Shown here one piece after another: positions 7,072 through 63,889 of a stretch of 64,000 bases of DNA. Numbering within the stretch: the stretch's first letter is position 1; each line of letters starts with the position of its first letter. Position numbers and translations under genes: made by a program. This stretch comes from Pempheris klunzingeri (taxonomy: Eukaryota > Chordata > Actinopteri > Acropomatiformes > Pempheridae). The notes below the pieces were generated by a model, which saw only the letters and a program-made list of their open reading frames with translations, was not told the DNA's origin and did not search any database. The stretch lies in assembly GCF_042242105.1 (NCBI RefSeq), contig NC_092033.1:1260908-1324907 (forward strand). The letters are read 5' to 3'.

Positions 7072-7672
7072 CACTACTCACTAAAAGTTAGGGATATTCA
7101 GCTTTCAGGTGAAGTTTCAGGATGAACCTAAAATGCATTCTAACCTTTCCAGGTGAACTTAATGTGACCTTCTCTAAACCTTTGAATGCACATGTCCAAC
7201 TGTTCAGTGTCTCAGTACTTTCTGCACCAGCTGCTGTTCTCTAACAAGAAGCTTAACAGCAACATTCACAACAGGTTTGATCCATGAATCCACCAATACA
7301 TTTCCTGCTTCAGTTAGAATTGGTATTTAAACAGTCCTCCTCATCCTGCTGTTCACATTCTGACATCATGAGACCAAGACGACACCTAACAGTTGATCAG
7401 CAGCACCTCAACACTGGAGGCTTCAAACAGGAAGTCCTCAGACGGAGGTGTTCACTGAGCTTAGAGGGTCACAGAGTGTCATCAGGAGGTTGGAACAGTG
7501 ATACAGAGACTGGAAGAGTCACAGAAAGGAGAGGAGTGGACGTCCTTTGGCCACGTCCCAATTTATTGAGACACTGAACATGTTTTGTTGTGTATCACTG
7601 TAGCATTCACTTTTTACATTTTCCATATATTTCACCTGAAAGTCGAACATCCCTAACTTTTAGTGAGTAGTG
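7072..7672. mobile_element. Tc1/mariner-like MITE (copy 1)
   Basis: A non-autonomous DNA element bounded by about 42-bp imperfect terminal inverted repeats. The left end begins cactactcactaaaagtta; the right end is its reverse complement finishing at 7672. The interior matches the copy at 63157-63889, including an open stretch at about 7369-7540 that is the same in both. The assignment to Tc1/mariner rests on repeat style only. Confidence 0.65.
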
Positions 7673-10219: not shown

Positions 10220-10320
10220 ATTGGGCTTTAATCCTCGCGCATGCGCAGTTTTGAAGATGTCTTTCGCGCCCTTGTACCGTGCACGTGCCCTTCCCGGTCC
10301 GCATGAGAGCTATAAATACC
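10220..10320 (+). promoter_or_regulatory. Promoter of the gag-derived gene
   Basis: Inverted CCAAT at 10220-10224, a perfect NRF1-type palindrome GCGCATGCGC at 10237-10246 and a TATAAAT box at 10311-10317. The coding start at 10383 is 72 bp after the TATA, implying a leader of about 40 nt, as in histone genes. The TATA part aligns with the 5' region of the DIRS fossil. The NRF1 palindrome also occurs before the H2B at 44539. Confidence 0.75.
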
Positions 10321-10382
10321 TGTGTGAGCTGACACCTGCCCCTCTGTTTCTTCAGTATTCAGCAGTATTGAAGAGCAACAAC

Positions 10383-11537
10383 ATGTCTTCCACGCTTCAA
10401 CCGTCCAGCGGGATCCGCCTCTGCCCGTCCTGCCAGACCAGCTACATCCTGCCGTCGGACCGCCACCCCCGCTGTGAGCTCTGCCTCGGCCCCCAGCACG
10501 CGGCGCTGGCCGTCACCCCCCAGGCCACCTGCCTGCACTGCGCCCTCCTGCCGGCAGGAGAGAGGCAGCGGCGGGCCGCTCCTGGGTACCCCGCCGCTGG
10601 ACACACCCGTGGTGCCGGGCAGGTGTCCCCTGACTCCGCTCCCGCCATCCAGGACTTCTTCACTCGCGCTCCCTCCTCCCCAGTGGGAGGCCTGAAGCGT
10701 GAGGCCGATCTCCAGGCTCCGCCTCCTCAGCGCCAGACCACCGCAGCTCTTCGGGACCTGCGGGCCATCATTGAGAGGGCGGCAGAGCGGAAGGGGATCC
10801 CCATGCCGGCGGAGCCTCCCGCCCCCATCCCCCTGTCGGTGATGGGGGGGATTTGCCAGCAGGTGGCGCAGGGGAACGGGCGGGCACCGGTGTGGCCATT
10901 TTACCCAGAGCTTCGGCCATTCCTGGAGGAAGCCACTAAAGAGCCTGGGAAACTGAAAGCACCGGTGTCCCGTTACGTCCCCTTCACCAAGGTGGAGGGC
11001 CTGACGGAGCACGGCTTCCCCTCCGCGCCGCCGCTGGAGCCGAGCCTGGCCTCCATCCTGCTGCCGAGGGCGTGTTTCTTCGGGAACAGGAAGCCGACTC
11101 CTCCCTCTCCGCGGGACCAGACCACAGCCCGCCTGACGGACCGGATCCATCAGTGCGCCGCTCAGTCCGTGGCGGCTCTGAACAACATCACCCTGCTGGC
11201 TTCCTCCGGGTCTGCTGCCGCCGCACAGCCCGGAGCTCTTCCCCCCGCTGTGGACAGCGAGTTCAGGAATGACATGTCGGCCATTTTGACCCTCTCCACG
11301 GCGGCGGTGGTTGCCCAGTCCCGCATCATGGCCTGGTCGACGGTGATCCAGCGCAACATGTGGCTCCCGAGTCAGCTGCCCGAGTCCGTCCGGGAGCACC
11401 TGATGAACGGCCCCATCAGCCCCGACGGACTGTTCGGACCGCTCCTCCCGGAGGCCGTCACCCAGCTCAGCAGGGAGCCTCAGCTTCAGCCTCAGCTTCA
11501 GCCTCAGCCGAGGCGGAAGCGGAGAAAGAGAAAGTGA
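10383..11537 (+). CDS. DIRS gag-derived protein with histone-type 3' end
   Basis: A retroelement gag-derived frame of 384 codons that looks whole. Starting at 10383 rather than the upstream in-frame ATG at 10221 puts the start just after the TATA-defined leader. Parts: an N-terminal Cys/His-rich region (C14, C17, H28, C31, C34, H39, C50, C53, a zinc-binding pattern); a Pro-rich linker; a central gag-like region (KAPVSRYVPFTKVEGLTEHG, about residues 200-300) shared with the DIRS fossil at 8196-9870; and a basic C-terminus PRRKRRKRK that could be a nuclear signal. No reverse transcriptase follows. A histone hairpin lies 57 nt after the stop, and H2B-type flank lies beyond it. The mammalian LAP2alpha-specific region is a known co-option of a DIRS-type gag. 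A similar domestication with S-phase mRNA control is my inference. Confidence 0.8.
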   Translation: MSSTLQPSSGIRLCPSCQTSYILPSDRHPRCELCLGPQHAALAVTPQATCLHCALLPAGERQRRAAPGYPAAGHTRGAGQVSPDSAPAIQDFFTRAPSSPVGGLKREADLQAPPPQRQTTAALRDLRAIIERAAERKGIPMPAEPPAPIPLSVMGGICQQVAQGNGRAPVWPFYPELRPFLEEATKEPGKLKAPVSRYVPFTKVEGLTEHGFPSAPPLEPSLASILLPRACFFGNRKPTPPSPRDQTTARLTDRIHQCAAQSVAALNNITLLASSGSAAAAQPGALPPAVDSEFRNDMSAILTLSTAAVVAQSRIMAWSTVIQRNMWLPSQLPESVREHLMNGPISPDGLFGPLLPEAVTQLSREPQLQPQLQPQPRRKRRKRK

Positions 11538-13719: not shown

Positions 13720-14959
13720 ATGGGGCCAATGGTGCTTTTAAGAGTTCTCCAGGGTTTAAGAGACGATGAACTCATGGAATTTCAGTGGTATCTGAAGATG
13801 CCTGATGCCCTGGATGACTACCAGCCCATCAACGAGTGCCAGCTGTTGAGGGCACAGAGGTGGGACACGGTGGATCTGATGGTGAAGGCCTACACACTTG
13901 ATGGAGCTCTGAAGGTGACCAAGAAGGTTTTAGAGAAGATAAACAGGAACGATCTGGTGCAGAAGCTGCCAGGCACCAGTTCAGGACCAGCAGGTCAGTC
14001 ACACTTCTGATTTTATTTGTATTTTCAGTCAGAATTGAAAATATAACAATTGTAATATGTAATCTGTCTCAACAAACACAGCGGACAGCACTGAGGTGGA
14101 GATGAGAGATGAAGCTCCAGCAGCCACAACGTCCAGAAACCTTCAGGCTCCACTTTCCAGACAGGAAGCTCCCACCCTTGAGGAGCAGATCATCGCTGCT
14201 GTGGCTGAGTCCAAGGAGCGTAAGGGGCTCTCACAGCCGGCGCTCAAAAAGGTTTTGGCCACCAAAGGAGTGGATGTGGCCAAAAGCAACAAGCACATCA
14301 ACATCGTCATCTTAAAACACATGCGTGATGGGACTCTGACTCAGTCCAAAGGTATCGGGGCCTCCGGCTCCTTCAAGCTGCCCAAGAAGGAGCCCAAAGC
14401 CGCCAAGAAAGATCCCGCTATAGTGAAGAAGCCTGCAGCCATGGAGGCAGCGAAGAAAGCAACGGCTGAGATGATGCTAGCGGCCAAGATGGCTGCAGAG
14501 GCAGTGAAGGCAGCTGCTGCAGCGAAGAAAGCAGCGGCTGAGAAGGCGTCAGTGGCCAAGGTGGCGGTAGCAGTCGGGAAGGTGGCAGCGGCCGAGAAGG
14601 CGGCCGAAAAAGCAGCTGAAGCGAAGGAAGCAGCCGCCAAGAAGGCAGCAGTGGCCAAGACGGCGGCCATGGCAGCAAATAAAGCAATTGCTGAGATGGC
14701 AGCAGTGGCCAAGAAGGCGGAAGCAGCTGAGAAGGTGGCCGCAACGAAGAAAGCAGCGGCTGAGAAGGCGGCTGAGAAGGCAGCAGCGGCCGAGAGGGTG
14801 GCGGCAACAAAGAAAGCAGCAGCCGAGAAGGCGGCAGCAGCCGCAGGGAGACGGCTCTCTCTGCCTTCTACACCCTCCATGTCTTTGTTTGCTGATAATT
14901 TCAAACTTCCCCACCTGCATACTGCTGTTCCTGAACAAGGATTTTATACTGATGATTGA
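13720..14959 (+). CDS. PYD-linker histone H1 fusion protein (gene 1)
   Basis: Two coding exons: 13720-13993 (PYD) and 14082-14959. The donor is CAG|GTCAGT and the acceptor ACACAG|CG, in phase 1, giving 383 aa. Residues about 5-86 form a pyrin domain (LRDDELMEFQWYL, then VDLMVKAY, ALKVTKKVLEKINRNDLVQKL). Residues about 123-195 are an H1 globular winged helix ([37 protein letters not shown]), close to the H1 genes of this cluster. Residues about 196-350 are an Ala/Lys/Glu tail almost free of Pro, followed by a unique end (FADNFKLPHLH...). The start is the ATG just after a 3' splice site (TTTCAGCAG) at 13710. There is no histone hairpin; an AATAAA lies at about 15268. PYDs bind other PYDs such as that of ASC; H1 domains bind DNA. 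Signalling from bound DNA is inference. Confidence 0.88.
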
Positions 14960-17170: not shown

Positions 17171-17293
17171 GTACAGGAGTTTAAATGAACGCAGCTCTTT
17201 AAAAGGATGTTTGTGGCTCTTAAAAGAGCCTTTGTGTTTGTTGTGGTTCCTGTTCTGTGACCCATCACAGGTCGGTGTCCTCGAACAGACCCA
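17171..17293 (-). pseudogene. H3 3'-end relic with intact hairpin
   Basis: The minus strand holds, in order, a short piece of H3 coding sequence (17266-17292, matching the LFEDTNLC codons), H3 3' UTR ('ggaaccacaacaaacac'-like), a perfect GGCTCT-TTTA-AGAGCC hairpin on the minus strand at 17215-17230 and the H3 downstream element (17190-17205). The final ~100 bp of the H3 coding region and everything 5' of the short piece are missing. It sits where unit order predicts an H3 gene, between two PYD-H1 genes. Confidence 0.8.
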
Positions 17294-18137: not shown

Positions 18138-18526
18138 GTAAGTCAAAGTTGTTACGGCTTCTGATTTAGTTTCCACAGATGAAAAGACAGATTAGAGTTG
18201 TAGCCAACTTCCTGGAAAAGAAGCCACAGTTTACCTGTTCAGACCTGTAGACTGTCTGTGATCAGAATATCTGCACAGTTGTTACAACCAGCATGTCTTT
18301 TTAACGTGTATAATTTATGGGGAAATTATGTCTCACCGTTGATTTCACATCCCGTCAGTGGCAGCAGGACTTTGTTTGATTCATATTTATGTGGCCTATA
18401 ACACCAGTGGTGCAGTAGTAGATAGTAGATTGTGTTCACTGTATTTTCTGGAGTCTTGTAGATGATGTTCTTTTCTCTGATAGTTTGGTGTCACATTTTT
18501 CCTTCTGGTTTCAGCAGGGAGCCACG

Positions 18527-19553
18527 ATGGGGTCAGAGGTGCTTTTCAGTTTTCTGCAGGATTTAAGAGATGATGAACTCAGGAAATTCCTGTGGTTTCT
18601 GACGATGTCTGATGCCCTGGATGAGTATGAGACCATCAACGAGCGCCAACTGTTGAGGGAAAATATGTGGGAAACGGTGGATCTGATGGTGAAGGCCTAC
18701 ACACCTGATGGAGCTCTGAAGGTGACCAAGAATATTTTAGAGAAGATGAACAGGAAGGATCTGGTGCAGAAGCTGCCAGGCACCAGTTCAGGACCAGCAG
18801 GTCAGTCACACAACTGATTTTATTTGTATTTTCAGTCAGAATTGAAAATATAACAATTGTAATATGTGATCTGTCTCGACAAACACAGTGGACAGCACTG
18901 AGGTGGAGATAATAGATGAAGCTCCAGCAGCCACAACGTCCAGCAACCTTCGGGCTCCACATCCCAGACAAGAAGCTCCCACCCTCCAGGAGCAGATCAT
19001 CACTGCTGTGGCTGAGTCCAGGGAGCGTTGGGGGCTCTCACAGCCAGCGCTTGAACAGGTTTTGGCCGCCAAAGGAGTGGATGTGGCTACAAGCAACAAC
19101 CACATCAACACGGTCACCTCCAACCTGGTGCATGAAGGGACTCTGACTCAGACCAGTGGCAACGGCATCGTCTTCTTCAAGCTGAATGCGGAAGCAGTTA
19201 AGAAGACGACTGCGGCAGCAAAAACAGCGGCAAGGAAAGCGGCTGCAGCTGAGAAGGCGGCTGCCGCGAAGAGAGAAGCCGCCAAGGAGGCGGCTGTGAA
19301 GGCGGCAGAGGCTGAGGAGGATGCTGCAATGAAGAAAGCAGATGCAGAAGAAGCGGCTGAGGCTGAGACTGTGGCCATGGCAGCCAAGGAAGCAGCCGAC
19401 AAGAAGGCGGAAGTGATCAAGAAGGCGGCAGCGATCAAGAGGGCGACAGCAGCGGTTGAGAAGGCGGAGACAGCGTTCAAGAGGGCGGCAGTAGCAACCC
19501 AGAAGGTGGGAGCAGCCGGAGGGCAATGGTTCTCTCCACCTTTTAACCCTTGA
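18527..19553 (+). CDS. PYD-linker histone H1 fusion protein (gene 2)
   Basis: Coding exons 18527-18800 (PYD) and 18889-19553, phase 1, 312 aa. The PYD reads LFSFLQDLRDDELRKFLWFL ... VDLMVKAY ... ILEKMNRKDLVQKL. The H1 domain (about residues 122-190) has TLQEQIITAVAESRERWG, VDVATSNNHIN and GTLTQT. Its wing is altered (SGNGIVFFKL instead of GASGSFKL). The tail of about 110 residues is Ala/Lys/Glu-rich and ends GGQWFSPPFNP. Shared splice sites and the upstream ISRE make it a paralogue of gene 1. It is the palindrome partner of gene 3 (39265-40277), which differs by a few residues and a small deletion. No histone hairpin follows. Confidence 0.87.
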
Positions 19554-19852
19554 AAAGTGATTTGTTGTGAATTACTTCTTGCAGCCCACCTGCCGTACCT
19601 ACACGGCCCACCAGGGGGCAACAGCCCACACTTTGGGAACCTCTGAGTTCTCCTTGTTTGTTTTGGTTTGATTGTGACAATGCATTTAAAATACTGCAGT
19701 TTCTGAATGAAGGTTTTACACTCCATGAATTAAAGATTATGTTACGTTATTCTGCTTTGGGGGTATTTAATCCGTTTTTTAGTCATTAATTGTGTTTTTA
19801 CAGTGACTCTTCACTGTCTCCTGCTTCCTTTTTGGTTTGTAGGATTTGTTTC

Positions 19853-19920
19853 AGTTAGTCCGCTTGACCTTGCAGGGCTCGTAAAGACCTATTGGTGCAT
19901 CTTATGAGAGCGGACTAACT
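19853..19920. repeat. 68-bp hairpin element (copy 2)
   Basis: 12-bp arms AGTTAGTCCGCT and AGCGGACTAACT with the conserved core, about 300 bp downstream of PYD-H1 gene 2. Confidence 0.7.
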
Positions 19921-19929
19921 TCCTTTCAT

Positions 19930-20290
19930 TTTGTTATAATCATCTGTGAAATGTGCAGTGGCATTTTCACTCCTAGTCTATCAGGTTCGTCTGCAATAGG
20001 TATTAATGGTAAATATAATTTGACTCTGTTTGGAAGAATAGGATTGTGATTTTATCATCTGCACTGTGGATAATAAATATTAACATTTATGCACCTTCAT
20101 TCCTTGTACTCCAGTTTATTTAGTGCTTGGCCTGTGGGATCAAGTCCAACAGAATCACTGAATCACTTGTGATAAGACTGAAGTGAGAAAGATTGATTTC
20201 AAACAGGTTATAAACTGTGTTTGGTGGTTCTAAATATATCAGGAAGGAAGTCTTTTATTGAGGTTTGCTTCTTTCTTTCCCTCTGCCAGC
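19930..20290. other. Spacer with repeat-derived sequence
   Basis: Continuation of the conserved block that follows the hairpin element, shared with about 15620-15850 and 38890-39140. No gene seen. Confidence 0.55.
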
Positions 20291-20720
20291 GAGGCTAACC
20301 TGTCCAGATCACTAGGATAAAGTAGTGATCGATGGTGTTTTCAGGTCGTCAGAGACACACCTGTTCCTCCTGATGACGGGGAATCACCTGAGCAGGTGAT
20401 CTGTGAAGATCTGATTCAGGACTTTTTTAGGACAAACAGCATTATTACAACAGCAGTAAGAGAGGAGACACATTTAGACTGATCTAGAAATCTTTCTCAG
20501 CTTGAAGGAGGTGAATTCATCAAGAGTCCAGTGGAGAATTTAAAGTGCCAGAGTGTTTAGAGAAGATGAACAGGAAGGATCTGGTGCAGAAGCTTCCAGG
20601 CACCAGTTCAGGACCAGCAGGTCAGTCACACTAACTTTCAGTCAAAATTAAAACTATAACAAATGTAATATGTGATCTGTCTCGACAAACAGTGAACAGC
20701 ACTGAGGTGGAGATGACAGG
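20290..20720 (+). pseudogene. Truncated PYD-H1 locus
   Basis: Positions 20300-20385 match the PYD-H1 promoter segment ('ctgtccagatcact...'). Positions 20555-20628 match the last part of the PYD exon (EKMNRKDLVQKLPGTSSGPA) up to its GTCAGT donor. Then come the short intron and the first bases of the H1 exon, ending near 20718. The PYD core and the H1 domain are absent. The mirror copy lies at about 38351-38770. Confidence 0.75.
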
Positions 20721-20724
20721 CTCA

Positions 20725-21430
20725 TATATAAAATGTGACTGTTAGTGTTTGGCCAATTTGCCTGTGAGCTTGTTTTACCCTGAATGGTATGTTTCCCAGT
20801 GAGGTATCAAGATCTGACTGCCTCCTCAGTATCATGTGAAAGGCTTTTTGTATTTCTAAACAGAGAAACCAACAGAGTCCAAGCACTTGCTTCATGTGGG
20901 TGAGAAGCTTTCTTTTTGGTGCACACCTCACAGAAGACAAGCATGTTGTTATGGCACCATCTTGTGGAATGATTCCACTATTGTTTTTATGTTTGGTTTG
21001 AATTATTCTGAACCAAATCTTATTTTTGTAACTGCTACCAGTGATTGTTACCCCTGGTTGACTTTGAATAGATAAAAAAAAAGGGGGTGAGTGTTTTGAA
21101 AGGCTCCTCAAGATCCAGCTCCCTTCAAAGAGCCTTAAATCCCATCTGTATAAAATATGTGTCAGACATGTTGCTTTGTAGCAGCTGTGGTTGGTTTCCA
21201 CCAGATTACTGCTCACTAAATGTCTCCATACTTCAGTGTGCTGCACATTGTTTCCTCAAAGAATCAAAAGGTGCACATTGTATAAGTATTATTTCAATCT
21301 AGCAATTTATTCCTACTTGCTGAAACATTTAATATTTGTAATCCATTTAAATGCTCCTTGTATCCCTATATTTTATACTCCCAAAGAATTGGGAGAAAAT
21401 AGTTATCTACATGTTTTCTATGAGTTTAAA
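20725..21430. other. Spacer, palindrome arm
   Basis: Nearly identical to the reverse complement of about 37630-38345. Open frames in it recur in both arms only because of the duplication. No gene recognised. Confidence 0.6.
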
Positions 21431-21460
21431 TGAACTCTGCTCTTTAAAAAGGATGTTTGT

Positions 21461-21476
21461 GGCTCTTAAAAGAGCC
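21461..21476 (-). promoter_or_regulatory. Histone mRNA 3' hairpin (H3 copy 1)
   Basis: GGCTCT-TTTA-AGAGCC on the minus strand, 45 nt after the H3 stop, with a 'tttttaaagagc' downstream element at about 21440-21453. Confidence 0.96.
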
Positions 21477-21521
21477 TTTGTGGTTGTGGTTGTGGTTCCT
21501 GTTGTGTTTCCGGGAGTCAGT

Positions 21522-22112
<591 letters not shown>

Positions 22113-23520: not shown

Positions 23521-24165
23521 TTACTTCTTGGCCTTCTTGGCTGCAGGTTTCTTAGCCGGAGCTTTCTTGGCTGGTACCTTCTTGGCGGGCTTCTTGGGGC
23601 TCTTCTTGGGAGCAGCAGCCTTCTTGGGGCTCTTCTTGGCTGCTGCCGGCTTCTTAGCGGCCGCTGCTTTCTTGGCCGGTGCCTTCTTCGGGGACTTCTT
23701 GGGGGCAGCTGCTTTCTTGGCTGCGGGCTTCTTTGCTGCCGGTTTCTTGGCCGCTACTTTCTTGGCCGCGGGCTTCTTGACCTTAGCCGGAGCTTTCTTG
23801 GCCGCCGCCGCTTTCTTGACGGGCTTGACGGCCTTGGGCTCCTTGGCCAGCTTGAAGGAGCCGGACGCCCCGGTCCCTTTGGTCTGAGTCAGGGTCCCTT
23901 TCCCCACGAGCTTGATGACGGCGCTGTTGATGCGCTTGTTGCTCTTGGCCACATCCACTCCTTTGGCGGCCAGAGCCTTCTTCAGCGCCGCCACCGAGAG
24001 CCCCTTCCGCTCCTTGGACGCGGCCACGGCGGTGACTATCAGTTTTGGGAGAGTGGGTCCGTCCTTCTTGGGCCGGGGAGCGGCCTTCTTCTTAGCGGCC
24101 TTAGCCGGAGCCTTAGCCGGGGCTTTGGCCGGAGCGGCCGCTGCTGCTGGAGCTTCTTCTGCCAT
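23521..24165 (-). CDS. Linker histone H1 (copy 1)
   Basis: Linker histone of 214 aa, intronless. The N-tail (about 1-38) is Ala/Pro/Lys-rich. The winged-helix globular domain covers about residues 39-112 ([42 protein letters not shown]). The long C-tail carries three SPKK CDK or DNA-binding motifs. It binds linker DNA at the nucleosome dyad. Compared with the copy at 34894, a few tail Ala/Pro/Val residues differ. This gene family is the likely donor of the H1 half of the PYD-H1 fusions, given the shared VDVAKSNK and GASGSFKL stretches. Confidence 0.99.
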
Positions 24166-24230
24166 GTTTGTGTGTGTTCGCTCTGCTGTGTTTGTCTCAG
24201 CGTGTCCGAGCTCAGAGCAGGAGGCGGGAC

Positions 24231-36945: not shown

Positions 36946-37536
<591 letters not shown>

Positions 37537-37581
37537 ACTGACTCCCGGAAACACAACAGGAACCACAACCACAACAACAAA

Positions 37582-37597
37582 GGCTCTTTTAAGAGCC
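37582..37597 (+). promoter_or_regulatory. Histone mRNA 3' hairpin (H3 copy 2)
   Basis: GGCTCT-TTTA-AGAGCC, 45 nt after the stop. A 'cttttaaagagctg' downstream element lies at 37607-37620. Confidence 0.96.
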
Positions 37598-37629
37598 ACA
37601 AACATCCTTTTAAAGAGCTGAGTTCATTT

Positions 37630-38345
37630 AAACTCATAGAAAACATGTAGATAACTATTTTCTCCCAATTCTTTGGGAGTATAAAATATAGGGATACAAG
37701 GAGCATTTAAATGGATTACAAATATTAATTGTTTCAGCAAGTAGGAATAAATTGCTAGATTGAAATAATACTTATATTATGTACACATTTTGATTCTTTG
37801 AGGAAACAATGTGCAGCACACTGAAGTATGGAGACATTTAGTGAGCAGTAATCTGGTGGAAACCAACCACAGCTGCTACAAAGCAACATGTCTGACACAT
37901 ATTTTATACAGATGGGATTTAAGGCTCTTTGAAGGGAGCTGGATCTTGAGGAGCCTTTCAAAACACTCACCCCTTGTTTTTTTTTTTATTTATCTATTCA
38001 AAGTCAACCAGGGGTAACAATCACTGGTAGCAGTTACAAAAATAAGATTTGGTTCAGAATAATTCAAACCAAACATAAAAGCAATAGTGGAATCATTCCA
38101 CAAGATGGTGCCATAACAACATGCTTGTCTTCTGTGAGGTGTGCACCAAAAAGAAAGCTTCTCACCCACATGAAGCAAGTGCTTGGACTCTGTTGGTTTC
38201 TCTGTTTAGAAATACAAAAGCCCTTTCACATGGTACTGAGGAGGCAGTCAGATCTTGATACCTCACTGGGAAACATACCATTCAGGGTAAAACAAGCTCA
38301 CAGGCAAATTGGCCAAACACTAACAGGCACATTTTACATATGAGC
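37630..38345. other. Spacer, palindrome arm
   Basis: Mirror of about 20725-21430. No gene seen. Confidence 0.6.
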
Positions 38346-38350
38346 CTGTC

Positions 38351-38770
38351 ATCTCCACCTCAGTGCTGTTCACTGTTTGTCGAGACAGATCACATATTAC
38401 ATTTGTTATAGTTTTAATTTTGACTGAAAGTTAGTGTGACTGACCTGCTGGTCCTGAACTGGTGCCTGGAAGCTTCTGCACCAGATCCTTCCTGTTCATC
38501 TTCTCTAAACACTCTGGCACTTTAAATTCTCCACTGGACTCTTGATGAATTCACCTCCTTCAAGCTGAGAAAGATTTCTAGATCAGTCTAAATGTGTCTC
38601 CTCTCTTACTGCTGTTGTAATAATGCTGTTTGTCCTAAAAAAGTCCTGAATCAGATCTTCACAGATCACCTGCTCAGGTGATTCCCCGTCATCAGGAGGA
38701 ACAGGTGTGTCTCTGACGACCTGAAAACACCATCGATCACTACTTTATCCTAGTGATCTGGACAGGTTAG
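38351..38770 (-). pseudogene. Truncated PYD-H1 locus (mirror copy)
   Basis: Mirror of 20290-20720. It has the first bases of the H1 exon, the short intron, the final part of the PYD exon (about 38439-38512) and, at about 38685-38770, the promoter fragment. The PYD core and H1 domain are absent. Confidence 0.75.
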
Positions 38771-39144
38771 CCTCGCTGGCAGAGGGAAAGAAAGAAGCAA
38801 ACCTCAATAAAAGACTTCCTTCCTGATATATTTAGAACCACCAAACACAGTTTATAACCTGTTTGAAATCAATCTTTCTCACTTCAGTCTTATCACAAGT
38901 GATTCAGTGATTCTGTTGGACTTGACCCCACAGGCCAAGCACTAAATAAACTGGAGTACAAGGAATGAAGGTGCATAAATGTTAATATTTATTATCCACA
39001 GTGCAGATGATAAAATCACAATCCTATTCTTCCAAACAGAGTCAAATTATATTTACCATTAATACCTATTGCAGACGAACCTGATAGACTAGGAGTGAAA
39101 ATGCCACTGCACATTTCACAGATGATTATAACAAAATTAAAGGA

Positions 39145-39212
39145 AGTTAGTCCGCTCTCATAAGATGCACCAATAGGTCTTTACGAGCCCTGCAAGGTCG
39201 AGCGGACTAACT
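39145..39212. repeat. 68-bp hairpin element (copy 3)
   Basis: 12-bp arms at 39145-39156 and 39201-39212. It lies only about 50 bp after the stop of PYD-H1 gene 3. Relative to gene 2, a segment of about 265 bp between the stop region and the element is missing. Confidence 0.7.
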
Positions 39213-39264
39213 GAAACAGGTACGGCAGGTGGGCTGCAAGAAGTAATTCACAACAAATCACTTT

Positions 39265-40277
39265 TCAAGGGTTAAAAGGTGGAGAGAACCATTGCCCTCC
39301 GGCTGCTCCCACCTTCTGGGTTGCTACTGCCGCCCTCTTGAACGCCGTCTCCGCCTTCTCAACCGCTGCTGTCGCCCTCTTGATCGCTGCCGCCTTCTTG
39401 ATCACTTCCGCCTTCTTGTCGGCTGCTTCCTTGGCTGCCATGGCCACAGTCTCAGCCTCAGCCGCTTCCTCTGCATCTGCTTTCTTCATTGCAGCATCCT
39501 CCTCAGCCTCTGCCACCTTCTCAGCCGCCTCCTTGGCGGCTTCTCTCTTCGCCGCAGCCGCCTTCTCAGCTGCAGCCGCTTTCCTTGCCGCTGTTTTTGC
39601 TGCCGCAGTCGCCTTCTTAACTGCTTCCGCATTCAGCTTGAAGAAGACGATGCCGTTGCCATTGGTCTGAGTCAGAGTCCCTTCATGCACCAGGTTGGAG
39701 GTGACCATGTTGATGTTAGCCACATCCACTCCTTTGGCGGCCAAAACCTGTTCAAGCGCTGGCTGTGAGAGCCCCCAACGCTCCCTGGACTCAGCCACAG
39801 CAGTGATGATCTGCTCCTGGAGGGTGGGAGCTTCTTGTCTGGGATGTGGAGCCCGAAGGTTGCTGGACGTTGTGGCTGCTGGAGCTTCATCTATTATCTC
39901 CACCTCAGTGCTGTCCACTGTGTTTGTCGAGAGATCACATATTACAATTGTTATATTTTCAATTCTGACTGAAAATACAAATAAAATCAGTTGTGTGACT
40001 GACCTGCTGGTCCTGAACTGGTGCCTGGCAGCTTCTGCACCAGATCCTTCCTGTTCATCTTCTCTAAAATATTCTTGGTCACCTTCAGAGCTCCATCAGG
40101 TGTGTAGGCCTTCACCATCAGATCCACCGTTTCCCACATATTTTCCCTCAACAGTTGGCGCTCGTTGATGGTCTCATACTCATCCAGGGCATCAGACATC
40201 GTCAGAAACCACAGGAATTTCCTGAGTTCATCGTCTCTTAAATCCTGCAGAAAAGTTAAAAGCACCTCTGACCCCAT
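39265..40277 (-). CDS. PYD-linker histone H1 fusion protein (gene 3)
   Basis: Coding exons on the minus strand 40277-40004 (PYD) and 39917-39265, phase 1, same GTCAGT donor and ACACAG acceptor, 308 aa. The PYD differs little from gene 2 (LLTFLQDLRDDELRKFLWFL). The H1 domain is shorter by four residues around helix 3 (VDVANINMVTSNLVHEG against VDVATSNNHINTVTSNLVHEG), removing part of the DNA-recognition helix region. This copy may thus bind DNA differently or poorly. The tail and end (GGQWFSPPFNP) match gene 2. The intron before the PYD exon holds an extra 1.7 kb. Confidence 0.86.
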
Positions 40278-40429
40278 CGTGGCTCCCTGCTGAAACCAGG
40301 AGGAAAAATGTGACACCAAACTATCAGAGCAGCAACAGAAGCTCTGATCGACACCAGAGCAGGTTTTAGCTCTGGAAATAGTTGCTGAGTTCAAACCATC
40401 ACATCACACATTAAAGTCTCCTCACAGGG

Positions 40430-48836: not shown

Positions 48837-50582
48837 GGCAGGAGATAAGCAGTAGGAGAGACCCTGAACCTGGAGACAGAGACTGGGCCAACAAGCTAAA
48901 TCTGTTTTTCAACAGATTTGATAATGGGCCCACCCCCTCCCCCTCCCTCCCCCTCCCCAGCCTGAGCACAGACCAGCCTACCCCCAGCTCCTCTCCACCA
49001 CCATCTCCGGGGCTCTCACCCTCCCCCTCACTTCCACAACCACCTCTGGTCCTCTCACCTCCACCCCCCCTCCTCTCTTCACACCAACTGTTGATCAGGT
49101 GAGAAGTCAACTGAAGAAGATTAAAGCCAGGAAACCCGTGGCCTTAACCTCTCACCTGATGAAGGCACTTGAGAGGATCGTCCTAACCCATCTCCGCCCC
49201 CTGGTGAGCCCACACATGGATCCCCTGCAGTTTGCATATCAGCCTGGAATTGGGGTGGATGACGCTGTCATCTACCTGCTGCAGAGATCCCTGTCTCACC
49301 TGGAGGGCAGTGGAAGCACTGTGAGGATCACTTTCTTTGATTTCTCCAGTGCCTTCAACACAATCCTACCTCCACTGCTCAGGGTGAAGATGGAGAGAGT
49401 GGGAGTCAGTGACCAGCTGGCTGCATGGGTCACTGACTACCTCACGGACAGACCCCAGTATGTGAGACTGCAGGACAGTGTGTCTGATGTGGTGGTTTGC
49501 AGCACAGGGGCCTCCCAGGGAACGGTACTGTCTCCTTTCCTCTTCACCCTGTACACATCAGACTTCAGGTACGCTACAGACAGTTGTCACCTCCAGAAGT
49601 TCTCTGATGACACTGCCATCGTGGGGTGTGTGTCAGAGGGGAACGACTGTGAATACAGGACGGTCATCACGGACTTTGTCGACTGGTGTGGACGAAACAA
49701 CCTCCTAGTCAACGCCAGCAAGACGAAAGAGATGGTGGTCGACTTCCACAAGAAACCCTCCATCACTGCACCAGTGAGCATCCAGGGACTTGGCATCGAG
49801 AGAGTGAGGACATACAAGTACCTGGGTGTTCACCTTAATAATAAACTGGACTGGACAGACAACACTGACTCTCTCTACAAGAGGGGTCAGAGTCGTCTAT
49901 ACCTGCTGAGGAGGCTAGGATCCTTTGGAGTGAGCAGACCACTCCTGAGGACCTTCTTCGAGACTGTGGTGGCATCTGTGGTCCTTTATGCAGTGGTGTG
50001 TTGGGGAGGGGGGTGCTCTGAGCGGGACAAGAACAGGCTCAACAGACTAATTAAGAGAGCCGGCTCGGTCTGTGGCTGCCCCCTGGACCCCATAGAGGTG
50101 GTGGGAGAGAGGAGGACCTTGTCCAAACTGTCCTCCATCTTGGACAACACCTCCCACCCTCTGCATCAGACTGTGGGGGCCTTAAGCAGCTCCTTCAGTC
50201 ACAGACTGATACACCCCAGGTGTAAGAAGGAGCGCTTCCGCAGGTCCTTCATCCCGACTGCAGTCAGACTGTACAATGCTGCATTATAGTCTGCTGCACC
50301 AACCACCACCACCACCTGTGCACTTTACTATAACATAAACTGTACAATAATTCTCACCCCACTTCACTTCACCCTGTTGTTGTTGTTGTTGTTGTTTGTC
50401 TCTGTAATTACATTTTTTTGTCTACATAGGTTTTTACCACTGTATATATTATATTATATTCTGCTATTCAATTTTTCTAATTCTTAACTGTGTGCTTTTA
50501 TTTTTCTATCTGTCCCTTTGAGCTGCTGTAACAGCAAAGTTTCCCCACTGAGGGATCAATAAATAAATAAATATCTTATCTT
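48837..50582 (+). mobile_element. 5'-truncated LINE insertion (L2/Rex1-like) with target duplication
   Basis: The insertion is flanked by ATTA (48833-48836 and 50583-50586). The uninterrupted site 'aaacattacactgatcag' is preserved in the homologous region near 28135-28150 (other strand), so both ends are exact. The 3' tail ends 'gggatcaataaataaataaa'. The open reading frame is described separately. It postdates the duplication of the H2A unit and is young, given its long open frame. Confidence 0.93.
49099..50289 (+). CDS. LINE reverse transcriptase, C-terminal two-thirds
   Basis: An open stretch of up to 396 codons encoding part of a non-LTR reverse transcriptase. Motifs: DFSSAFNTI (palm motif A), GASQGTVLSPFLFTLYTSDF (motif B), FSDDTAIVG (motif C with the catalytic DD), NASKTKEMVVDF, then the thumb region YKYLGVHLNNKLDW and RLYLLRRLGSF. 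It ends RRSFIPTAVRLYNAAL. The endonuclease and first RT motifs are missing through 5' truncation. The first codons after 48837 are Pro/Ser-rich linker. It is mobile-element sequence, not a host gene. Confidence 0.9.
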   Translation: MRSQLKKIKARKPVALTSHLMKALERIVLTHLRPLVSPHMDPLQFAYQPGIGVDDAVIYLLQRSLSHLEGSGSTVRITFFDFSSAFNTILPPLLRVKMERVGVSDQLAAWVTDYLTDRPQYVRLQDSVSDVVVCSTGASQGTVLSPFLFTLYTSDFRYATDSCHLQKFSDDTAIVGCVSEGNDCEYRTVITDFVDWCGRNNLLVNASKTKEMVVDFHKKPSITAPVSIQGLGIERVRTYKYLGVHLNNKLDWTDNTDSLYKRGQSRLYLLRRLGSFGVSRPLLRTFFETVVASVVLYAVVCWGGGCSERDKNRLNRLIKRAGSVCGCPLDPIEVVGERRTLSKLSSILDNTSHPLHQTVGALSSSFSHRLIHPRCKKERFRRSFIPTAVRLYNAAL

Positions 50583-59051: not shown

Positions 59052-60264
59052 TCAATTTTCAAGGGTGAAGAAGTCAGAGAGCCGTCTCCCTGCAGCTATT
59101 GCCGCCTTCTCAGCCACTGCTTCTGCTTTCTTGGCTGCTGCTTTCTTCGTAGCTAACACCTTCTCGGCCGCGTCAGCCTTCTTGGTTGCTGCCGCTCTCT
59201 TGGCTGCTTCCGCCTCGTTGGCGGCTGCTTCCTTCGCTACTATGGCCAACCTCGCAGCCTTAGCCGCTTTCTTGGCATCTGCTTCCTTCATTGCAGCGTC
59301 CTCGTCAGCCGCTGCTGCCTTCTCAGCCTCCTCCTTGGCGGCTTTTCTCTTCGCTGCAGCTGCCTTCTCTGTCACAGCTGCTTTCTTGGCTGCTATTTTC
59401 GCTGCCGCCTCGGCCTCCTTGGCTGCTTCGGCCTTCTCTGTGGCACTTTTTTTCACTGCAGCCGCCTTTTCAGCCGCCTTGTCGGCAGCTGCTCTCTTCT
59501 TTGCTGCCGCCTTCCCGGCCACAGCCGCTTCATTGGCTGCAGCTTTCGCTGCAGCTGCAGGCTTCTTCACTGTAGTGGGACCTTTCTTGGCAGTTTTGGG
59601 CTCCTTGGCCAGCTTGAAGATGCCATTGTTCTGGGTCAGAGTCCCATCACGCACCAGGTTTAAGGTGACCCTGTTGATGTCCTTGTTGCTTTTAGCCACA
59701 TCCACTCCTTTGGCAGCCAAAACCTTTCTGAGCTCCGGCCGTGAGAGCCCCTTACGCTCACTGGACTCAGCCACAGCAGTGATGATCTGCTCCTCAAGGG
59801 TGGGAGCTTCCTGTCTGGGATGTGGAGCCTGAAGGTTTCTGGACGTTGTGGCTGCTGGAGCTTCGTCTCTCATCTGCACCTCAGTGCTGTTCACTGTGTT
59901 TGTCAAGAGAGGTCACATATTATATTTGTTATATTTTCAATTCTAACTTTTTCATCTGAAAATACAAATAAAATCAGTTGTGTGACTGACCTGCTGGTCC
60001 TGAACTGGTGCCAGGCAGCGTCTGCACCAGATCGTTCCTGTTCATCTTCCCTAAAATATTTTTGGTCACCTTCAGAGCTCCATCAGGTGTGTAGGCCTTC
60101 ACCATCAGATCCACTGTGTCCCACCTCTGTGCCTTCTCCAACTGGCACTCATTTATGGGCTGGTAGCCGCACAGGACGTCAGGCATCTTCAGACGCCACA
60201 GGAATACCTTGAATTCATCGTCTGTTAAACCCTGCAGAACTCTCAAAAGCACCTCTGGCCCCAT
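59052..60264 (-). CDS. PYD-linker histone H1 fusion protein (gene 4)
   Basis: Coding exons on the minus strand 60264-59991 (PYD) and 59893-59052, phase 1, 371 aa. The PYD reads LLRVLQGLTDDEFKVFLWRL ... VDLMVKAY ... ILGKMNRNDLVQTL and is closest to gene 1. The H1 domain has [29 protein letters not shown] and [15 protein letters not shown], then KKPAAAAKAAANE and a tail of about 170 residues rich in Ala, Lys and Glu, ending GRRLSDFFTLEN. Splice signals equal those of the other members. This is the least palindrome-linked copy, so its open frame is the best independent sign of constraint. Confidence 0.88.
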
Positions 60265-61499: not shown

Positions 61500-63150
61500 T
61501 TAGATCATTAGTGGTTCATGTGGAAACACAGCAGGCTGCAAGATGGCGGAGAGGACGAGGAGTCAGAGCAGCAAACTAAACAGAGGGAGGAGGATCTGGC
61601 ACTGAAACAGAGGCCTTTCAGCATCATTAAGAATATCCAGGTAGCTGATTTATAGAAGTGAAAGAGAGATTTAGTCATTTCCAGCATTAGTTAAGTTATT
61701 TTTCAAAGTGTAACTGGTGGTCATGTGTAATTTTAGCAGACTTTTTAGCAACACTGTTCTGTTCAAAAATAAAAGACAGTACAGCAGCTTTTCATAAACT
61801 GGCTCCTCCGTGCACACCTCCTCCTCAGCGGGGCCTCCAGCCGACTGAGTAACATTCATCATAGGATTATTAAAAGAAAACAGCATATTGTGATCGTATA
61901 GTTACAATTTCATATTAAAGAAAACCATATATAATGCCTAGAGGAATTACTCTCCCTCCCACCAGTAGCAAATTTTATATTTTACCTTATGAACATTAAC
62001 AAACAATTGTCTCCATAGTGCTGAAAATCATTATACACAATACAAATGGGGAACCTCACATACCTGTTCACAGCAGCTTTTCTTAACCTGGCTCCTCCAT
62101 TCACACCCTTAAAGACAAAGGTCCAAAAAGCGCGAACCGCATGAGAAACCGCATGAATGCTCCAGCAACCTAGCTTAGCATCGTAAATTTGCATATTAGC
62201 ACATAAATTAGCATATATTAGCACATAAAAGTGCTGTACTTTACAAAAACAACTGTACACTCCTGTACCAACTGACCTGAGGCCGTTAAACAGTCTGTGA
62301 GTCTAACAGAACCCGCTATTTAACGCTTTTAGCATATTTTAACCTGTAGTGACGGAAACAACACTCACCTGTGCTCAGCGGGGCTCCAGCCGACTGAGAA
62401 GGCGGGGCGAATTGACAGGTAGTGACGTCAGTGGAAGACCAAAAGTCATTTAAGAAAATAAAAGTCTTCCAGAATAAATTACAAAAATACATGGAATTAT
62501 GTACACACTAACAATAAAAACAAAATGATCACTTGATCAAGGGGATGGATATTTGGTGAAATAAACATTGTTTGAACACACCTGTTACATATATATAGTA
62601 TTTTTTTCCTTTTTCTTCCCACTAACAAATGGAGATGGTGCTATGGTCAGTGAACCCTTGGTAACAATGAGCCTTATAGAAACAGAATGAACAAACAAGA
62701 CAACATCAAACTAGAATGAACAGAACAAGCAGAACATGTAGCTGCAGCAGAAAGACGGCGACTGATGTGTTCAGCATAACATCAATAACATCAGTTGTCT
62801 AGTAGTGGTTCTGCACTGCTGAAACAAAAGAGGCTGCACTAGAATTATATAGTTGCACAGTAGCTGCAGTATCTACAGCAGCATTATTGGGCACCTTTGC
62901 TTCATTTCAACCTCTTCATCAATATGACAAATATGAGTTCCCTTGACGAGGGGAATATTTATTCATTTTTTATTTTCAAGACATTATTACTATTATTTAT
63001 TTTATTTCATTTATTGTTTTAATTGTTTTTTCTTAAGGCTTGCAGCAGCGCCGTCTCTGCATACAGGGGAAACCCTCCTCCTTTTAGTGGACTCCATGAA
63101 ATTAGCAAAGCTCCAACACAAACACTAACATGCACATTTTGCACATGTGC
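61500..63150. other. Region upstream of PYD-H1 gene 4
   Basis: A module containing 'cagcagctttt' and 'ctggctcctcc', together with 'cagcggggctccagccgact'-like blocks, recurs at about 61785-61850, 62075-62100 and 62375-62400. It may be a diverged repeat or promoter modules of an unseen gene. No coding segment recognised. Confidence 0.45.
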
Positions 63151-63156
63151 TTCATG

Positions 63157-63889
63157 CACTACTCACAAAAAGTTTGGGATATTCGGCTTTCAGGTGAAAT
63201 TTCAGGATGAACCACCACCAATACATTTCCTGCTTCAGTTAGAATTGGTATTTAAACAGTCCTCCTCATCCTGCTGTTCACATTCTGACATCATGAGACC
63301 AAGACGACACCTAACAGTTGATCAGCAGCACCTCAACACTGGAGGCTTCAAACAGGAAGTCCTCAGACGGAGGTGTTCACTGAGCTTAGAGGGTCACAGA
63401 GTGTCATCAGGAGGTTGGAACAGTGATACAGAGACTGGAAGAGTCACAGAAAGGAGAGGAGTGGACGTCCTTTGGCCACGTCCCAATTTTACGTTTACCC
63501 TCTGTTAGGAAATAGAAAATGTGCAGACACGCTTATGCTAATACATTTTTATGTTAGTACATTTATGCTTTATTATCATGAAGTTTTAGCCTGATGCTGG
63601 ACTGTGTGATGGTTGCTGTGACCTTTACACAGACCAAAGAGACGTGTGTTGGCGTAGGATGTATCAGACTGTGCTTGCATTCTTGAGATAAAGAAGAGTT
63701 CGAGAAGGCCTTGAACGGTGAGAAGTCAGCGTTTCTTTCAGTAAATTGTTTAAAATGAAGAAACTACCAGTGCATGCTTCTACTTAAATGTCCTACTTTC
63801 ATGATATAATATCACTGTAGCATTCACTTTTTATATTTTCCATAAATTTCACCTGAAAGTTGAATATCCCTAACTTTTAGTGAGTAGTG
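63157..63889. mobile_element. Tc1/mariner-like MITE (copy 2) with internal insertion
   Basis: Same terminal inverted repeats and interior as 7072-7672. About 320 bp of unrelated sequence (about 63489-63808, starting near 'tctgttaggaaatag') interrupts it shortly before the right end. That insert could be a solo LTR-type remnant; I see no certain ends. Confidence 0.65.

Follow-up and report, generated by a model that had tools for sequence, protein, structure and literature searches.

PYHIN or AIM2-like receptors (AIM2, IFI16, MNDA and PYHIN1) join an N-terminal pyrin domain (PYD) to a nucleic-acid-binding domain and are encoded in multicopy, fast-changing clusters. In these sensors a DNA-tethering domain is coupled to a PYD that signals to ASC-like partners. 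Humans also possess the PYD-only proteins POP1-3. In the genome examined here, PYD-NLR, PYD-TRIM/B30.2 and PYD-URGCP/GVIN-type GTPase arrangements carry a single PYD exon of a broad lineage on the N-terminal side. PYHIN proteins are stated to occur in mammals only (PMC11054388), and the NLR-B30.2 genes of zebrafish are described as undergoing domain shuffling with gene conversion (PMC4852459). The fish genes described here resemble PYHIN genes in domain order and in forming a multicopy cluster that changes fast, but their putative DNA-binding part is the winged helix of a linker histone H1 and not HIN-200. They also resemble the fish PYD chimeras in their single PYD exon, and replication-dependent histone H1 genes in exon 2, which came from such a gene, apparently together with its 5'UTR. 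Pfam scans of the six proteins g1-g6 found no HIN domain, and the family is therefore not PYHIN; a HIN search of the genome also gave no match, a result that is no proof of absence because the control genomes were silent too.

The window, that is, the whole stretch of 64,000 nucleotides analysed, spans positions 1260908-1324907 of contig C22 in a 646-Mb genome, the one genome examined. A sequence-only reading had proposed four two-exon genes that join a PYD to an H1 domain through one donor and acceptor and stay open for 308-383 codons, and all four models could be rebuilt as described (Table 1). Exon 1 has the same length and end phase in all four, which also have the donor GTCAGT and the acceptor ACACAG in common; phase, donor and acceptor are retained in all six copies once g5 and g6 are counted. 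Judged by eye, the splice signals have a poor acceptor pyrimidine tract and a C at donor position +3. The predicted proteins of g1-g4 contain 383, 312, 308 and 371 aa, g3 being a near copy of g2, and an unspliced PYD frame would end after 96 aa in each of the four, giving a PYD-only product. The profile check suggested by the same reading placed both domains of g1-g4 above the Pfam curated cut-offs, with E-values of 3.3e-17, 3.1e-14, 1.3e-14 and 2.0e-19 for PYRIN and of 2.4e-17, 4.6e-9, 1.2e-5 and 7.2e-9 for Linker_histone. In bits, PYRIN scored 53-70 in g1-g4, 75.2 in g5 and 75.3 in g6 (PF02758 cut-off 22.9), and Linker_histone scored 63.4, 36.8, 25.9, 36.2 and 39.3 in g1-g5 (PF00538 cut-off 22.4) and gave no match in g6. 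An antisense frame of 200 codons across the g1 tail is also open, so the openness of the tail is weak evidence by itself, and the weight of the evidence for these putative fusion genes lies on the two domain homologies.

Table 1 Features of the candidate PYD-H1 family and of the canonical H1 genes. Positions are those of the window unless a contig or locus is named.
Feature	Position	Strand	Content	Basis
g1 exon 1	13720..13993	+	pyrin domain, 274 nt, phase-1 end	rebuilt model, Pfam
g1 intron	13994..14081	+	88 nt, GTCAGT...ACACAG	rebuilt model
g1 53-nt stretch	14072..14124	+	acceptor plus first part of exon 2; 38/53 matches to canonical H1 5'UTR/start	
g1 exon 2	14082..14959	+	linker, H1 globular domain, long Ala/Lys/Glu helix (predicted)	model, Pfam, structure prediction
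g2 exon 1	18527..18800	+	pyrin domain	rebuilt model, Pfam
g2 exon 2	18889..19553	+	tail and H1 globular domain with most basic residues gone	
Relic	20556..20735	+	final 65 nt of PYD exon, intron, altered acceptor, exon-2 start	
Canonical H1	24143..24195, ATG at 24165	-	intronless; 53-nt stretch matching g1 junction	
Canonical H1	34864 (start of stretch)	+	matching 53-nt stretch	
Second relic	38330..38509	-	same make-up as first relic, in inverted duplicate	
g3 exon 2	39265..39917	-	tail and H1 globular domain with in-frame 12-nt deletion	
g3 exon 1	40004..40277	-	pyrin domain	rebuilt model, Pfam
Canonical H1	54565 (start of stretch)	+	matching 53-nt stretch	
g4 exon 2	59052..59893	-	tail and H1 globular domain without GASGS wing	
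g4 exon 1	59991..60264	-	pyrin domain	rebuilt model, Pfam
g6	L009 1365-389 (C22:1325296-1326272)	-	g5-type PYD and g1-type tail, H1 globular domain deleted in frame, 279 aa	
g5	L009 8347-7294, ~7-8 kb beyond window end	-	fifth full copy, both domains, 321 aa	

Sequence matches to g1 in the PDB included the PYDs of NLRP9, NLRP14 and NLRP4 (8e-5 to 3e-4), ranked under matches to four designed PPR repeat proteins, which look spurious as matches. An AF2 model of the PYD built from four close copies had six helices at a poor pLDDT of 45, and a Foldseek search with this poor model put PYD structures at the top of the list with a best E of only 0.28. PYD exons of the fusion lineage also precede, in matching orientation, TRIM/B30.2 exons at L019 (B-box, coiled coil, PRY and SPRY), L015 and L012 (both PRY/SPRY), NLR exons at L013 and L017, and a URGCP-type GTPase exon at L072 (C23:13424700-13429700), membership in one gene being inferred at these loci from exon order and strand. 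They differ from the fusion family in what lies downstream, which is FISNA-NACHT, PRY/SPRY or a large GTPase, and an H1 domain was found in none of the six examined. The FISNA domains, which are specific to fish NLRs, indicate that the genome is that of a fish. In a phylogenetic tree the fusion PYDs clustered with copies on contig C20 and the GTPase-linked PYD (L056/L072) at a support of 97/90, the group also holding two long rows (L061 and L062) of unsure placement, and one C20 copy nested with g2. At C11 and C21, PYD and CARD matches share a strand at a spacing of 1.1-1.2 kb, which is ASC-gene-like, and ASC-like PYD+CARD loci thus appear to be present in this genome.

The proposal of a fusion family inside a histone cluster was supported, with the correction that the family is larger than four and includes g5, g6 and relics. 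Genome-wide profile searches listed at least 75 PYD matches and 26 linker-histone matches, the g3 H1 domain not being among these 26. Comparing the listed matches by eye, a PYD followed within ~250 bp by a same-strand H1 domain was seen five times, each time within this cluster (g1-g5). The intron of g6 is 49 nt longer and its frame is open despite the loss of the H1 domain; the end of g5 uses a reading frame different from that of the other copies. An inverted duplication holds g2 and g3 (18475-22027 versus 37031-40329), one 1.1-kb part being 97.7% identical and another of 2.2 kb 98.6%. Of three close PYD copies on C20, one retains a broken exon-2 piece behind an insertion in its intron.

Other features of the cluster and its relatives were recorded alongside. 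A repeated element occurs at window positions 7281-7577 and 63023-63508 and at L016 3166-3555, with one peptide common to all three, and the element at L016 lies within the broken PYD copy on C20, in its intron. Between g5 and g6 lies a divergent H1-like frame of 199 codons without a PYD (L009 4822-4226, minus strand; Linker_histone 3.2e-14), and an H1 gene unlike the canonical type of the cluster lies at L024 2742-3575, plus strand (C22:1354741-1355574; Linker_histone 5.7e-20). A histone 3' stem-loop at 17192-17235 on the minus strand, perhaps an H3 relic, has no intact histone gene in the adjoining open frames. Long open frames at 48925-50289 and 10221-11537 look by eye like retroelement proteins, the first resembling a reverse transcriptase. 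Among viral contigs, 25 pattern matches were obtained and none was confirmed.

Comparison of the six copies showed exon 1 identities of 82-89%, with g2/g3 and g5/g6 closer. The 120 nt upstream of the ATG were identical at 119-120 of 120 positions among g1, g3, g4, g5 and g6, g2 deviating beyond -52; in the same pairs PYD codons 1-50 were identical at 108-127 of 150 positions, except for g5-g6 (149/150), and the remainder of exon 1 was again identical at 116-123 of 124. Values of dN/dS among copies were 1.31 for PYD, linker and H1 domain together, 1.66 for PYD codons 1-50, 0.56 for codons 51-91 and 0.97 for the H1 domain, none of them far from 1 in likelihood. Positive selection on PYD codons 1-50, where 1.66 exceeds a ratio of 1 by about 2 log-likelihood units (kappa fixed in the null), is not claimed, because synonymous as well as non-synonymous differences were raised relative to intron and flank (in two and three of three pairs, respectively), which points to conversion of the flank. 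We read this pattern as conversion and reassortment at the scale of exons, superimposed on constraint from the fold, with positive selection unproven; judged from these alignments, the copies swap exons. A motif scan of the 1 kb 5' of the six copies, with no shuffle control, found no NF-kB site in any of them, an ISRE-like motif in g1 and g2 only, at different positions, and a GAS-like TTCNNNGAA, variable in position, in all copies but one. The scan also found an AP-1-like TGASTCA at -159 in g1, g4, g5 and g6, which adjoins the near-identical 5' block; these matches are a lead only.

These data bear on the possibility that the copies are young duplicates drifting towards pseudogenes, the product of an accidental fusion that is not usefully expressed and whose frames are open through recency or homogenisation. 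The dN/dS values near 1, the relics of the PYD-intron-exon-2 unit in the window and at C20, the loss of the H1 domain in g6, the different frame at the end of g5 and the tail that is open in antisense would all suit such drift. However, no stop was found in the PYD, linker and H1 domain of the six copies, and exon 1 had no gap in 15 pairs whereas introns had gaps of 2, 9, 40 or 49 nt. In the 10 pairs among g1-g5, the first 240 nt of exon 2 had a 12-nt gap only; the other gaps in the H1 wing stem from an alignment guided by protein, which forces multiples of three. When the observed number of changes was applied at random to the PYD exon (15 start-target pairs, some reciprocal, 400 runs each), 71-147 of 400 runs per pair (18-37%) remained open, and none of the 1561 open sequences reached the observed profile score. 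Corresponding simulations from canonical H1 reached the observed score in 0/196, 0/130, 8/160, 7/206 and 0/143 sequences for g1-g5, a weaker result for g3 and g4 (3-5% of runs), and dN/dS of the H1 domain against canonical H1 was 0.37-0.59, values to which the canonical branch contributes. By these simulations the PYD, and less strongly the H1 domain, is nearer its own family than random change would leave it. The PYD copies on C20 that have no intact H1 part likewise passed the PYD fold test, so that the test is no proof of selection on the fused form, and PYD-like residues could be imported by conversion from other PYD genes. On balance, drift is regarded as possible but unlikely.

The second proposal of the sequence-only reading, a sensor or adaptor that binds DNA or chromatin, found uneven support, strongest for g1. 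The model of g1 exon 2 (pLDDT 59 as a whole) contains an H1 winged helix with pLDDT of 61-81 by block over the domain, and Foldseek matched this domain to linker histones in chromatosome structures 8h0v_u (TM 0.91) and 7k5y_U (human H1.4; TM 0.88), both by target, with a superposition of 1.5 A over 73 columns. At seven positions that we take to be the DNA contacts of GH5, whose sequence itself was checked, canonical H1 has five basic residues, g1 five, g5 four, and g4, g2 and g3 three each. Relative to the local canonical H1, the losses are K85 in g5, K40 and K85 in g4, and K52 and K85 in g2/g3, and the GASGS wing and K85 are missing in copies 2-5. The net charge of the domain falls from +13 in canonical H1 to +7 in g1, +5 in g5, +4 in g4 and -2 in g2/g3, the last having 4 K+R residues versus 15. 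DNA binding by g1 is plausible. The tail no longer has the strongly basic, proline-rich character of H1 in any of g1-g6: its net charge is +4 to +18 versus +42 in canonical H1, its prolines number 1-8 versus 17 in 106 aa, and it contains 7-11 oppositely charged i,i+4 pairs, of which the canonical tail has none. For g1 a single helix was predicted at residues 119-254 of the exon-2 model (pLDDT 42-79 by block), and the H1 tail is thus predicted to have turned into a long helix.

A family of PYD regulators would account for several of these features, the PYD being the working part and H1 plus tail a stable nuclear anchor or oligomerising rod with no DNA sensing. Such a role would suit g6, which is PYD plus tail, the basic residues mostly gone from the H1 domain of g2/g3, and the 96-aa PYD-only protein that could be read from unspliced RNA of g1-g4 and resembles POP1-3, unlike the spliced product with its H1 domain and tail. 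It is harder to reconcile with the modelled H1 fold of g1, where 5/5 of the canonical basic residues are kept, or with an H1 domain above the Pfam cut-off in five copies, and we consider it unlikely.

The origin of exon 2 could be traced to the canonical H1 genes of the same cluster. Exon 2 starts outside H1 coding sequence: its acceptor ACAAACACAG and its first bases align to these genes from the 5'UTR through the start codon into the first codons. When the g1 53-mer was compared with both strands of the window, the three canonical H1 genes matched at 38/53, family relics at up to 34 and the best unrelated place at 31/53, and MAFFT aligned the first 51 nt without gaps across the six copies and three canonical H1 genes. 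By itself the 5'UTR part matches modestly, since 32 shuffles and 28 random 45-mers of the window, each out of 5000, score as high. Its position adds weight, because its distance from the start codon and from the homologous first codons is the same. The old H1 start codon survives as ATG in g1, g4, g5 and g6 and has become ATA in g2/g3, where it is therefore unusable as a start. Canonical H1 genes are intronless and the three in the window have the histone 3' stem-loop; the fusion genes g1-g4 differ in bearing an intron and in having no stem-loop (at most one mismatch to the 16-mer, coding orientation) within 9 kb downstream. Rfam at the gathering threshold likewise reported no stem-loop at g1-g4, but it missed those of the canonical H1 genes too. 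The first polyadenylation signals lie 60-272 nt past g1-g4, and none was seen within the 1500 nt scanned downstream of g5 or the 388 nt downstream of g6, which is weak evidence. The acceptor and linker of exon 2 appear to be former 5'UTR and start sequence from an intronless H1 gene in the cluster. That the PYD exon and the H1-like exon are instead two separate genes, not spliced to each other, is very improbable, for the weak acceptor and the surviving start codon of four copies are outweighed by the ATA of g2/g3, the stop after 96 aa in the unspliced frame of g1-g4, the splice phase, donor and acceptor common to all six copies and the missing H1 stem-loop behind g1-g4.

Taken together, the sequence evidence is read tentatively, and with a little less than even confidence, as a young chimeric PYD-H1 family of PYHIN-like adaptors or sensors without HIN. 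The sequence supports an origin in which a mobile fish PYD exon landed upstream of a replication-dependent histone H1 gene, where a putative splice acceptor in the former H1 5'UTR links the exons and the old UTR and start codon have turned into a linker. It also supports an expansion of the family along with the histone cluster, with exon exchange among copies. The predicted spliced protein may serve innate immunity as a PYD adaptor or sensor in which the H1 winged helix is a tether to DNA or nucleosomes, the best case being g1; the tether would be weakened in g4/g5 and probably lost, or switched to another ligand, in g2/g3. The one-time H1 tail, predicted to form a long charged helix, could serve as a rod that spaces or clusters the molecules, and PYDs clustered in this way would be able to seed filaments with ASC-like partners or to cap them. 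Copies that do not bind DNA could be dampers, as could the 96-aa PYD-only products of unspliced RNA. It is rather unlikely, though conceivable, that fish independently evolved an AIM2/IFI16-like alarm for DNA or chromatin from a pyrin domain and a hijacked H1, with exon swaps and with copies travelling along with the histone cluster.

Searches of the open-access PMC literature turned up no PYD-H1 fusion, in agreement with the earlier statement that no described family of this architecture was known to its author. PYD chimeras as such are already known, and as far as could be seen the new elements are H1 as the partner of a PYD and an acceptor in a former 5'UTR. The fusion family may be a fish counterpart of the mammalian DNA-alarm proteins. 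If this is true, joining a PYD to the winged helix of H1 would offer DNA-triggered inflammasome signalling by a convergent route, or would place PYD signalling on chromatin. The acceptor in the former 5'UTR suggests how an intronless histone gene may become a captured exon.
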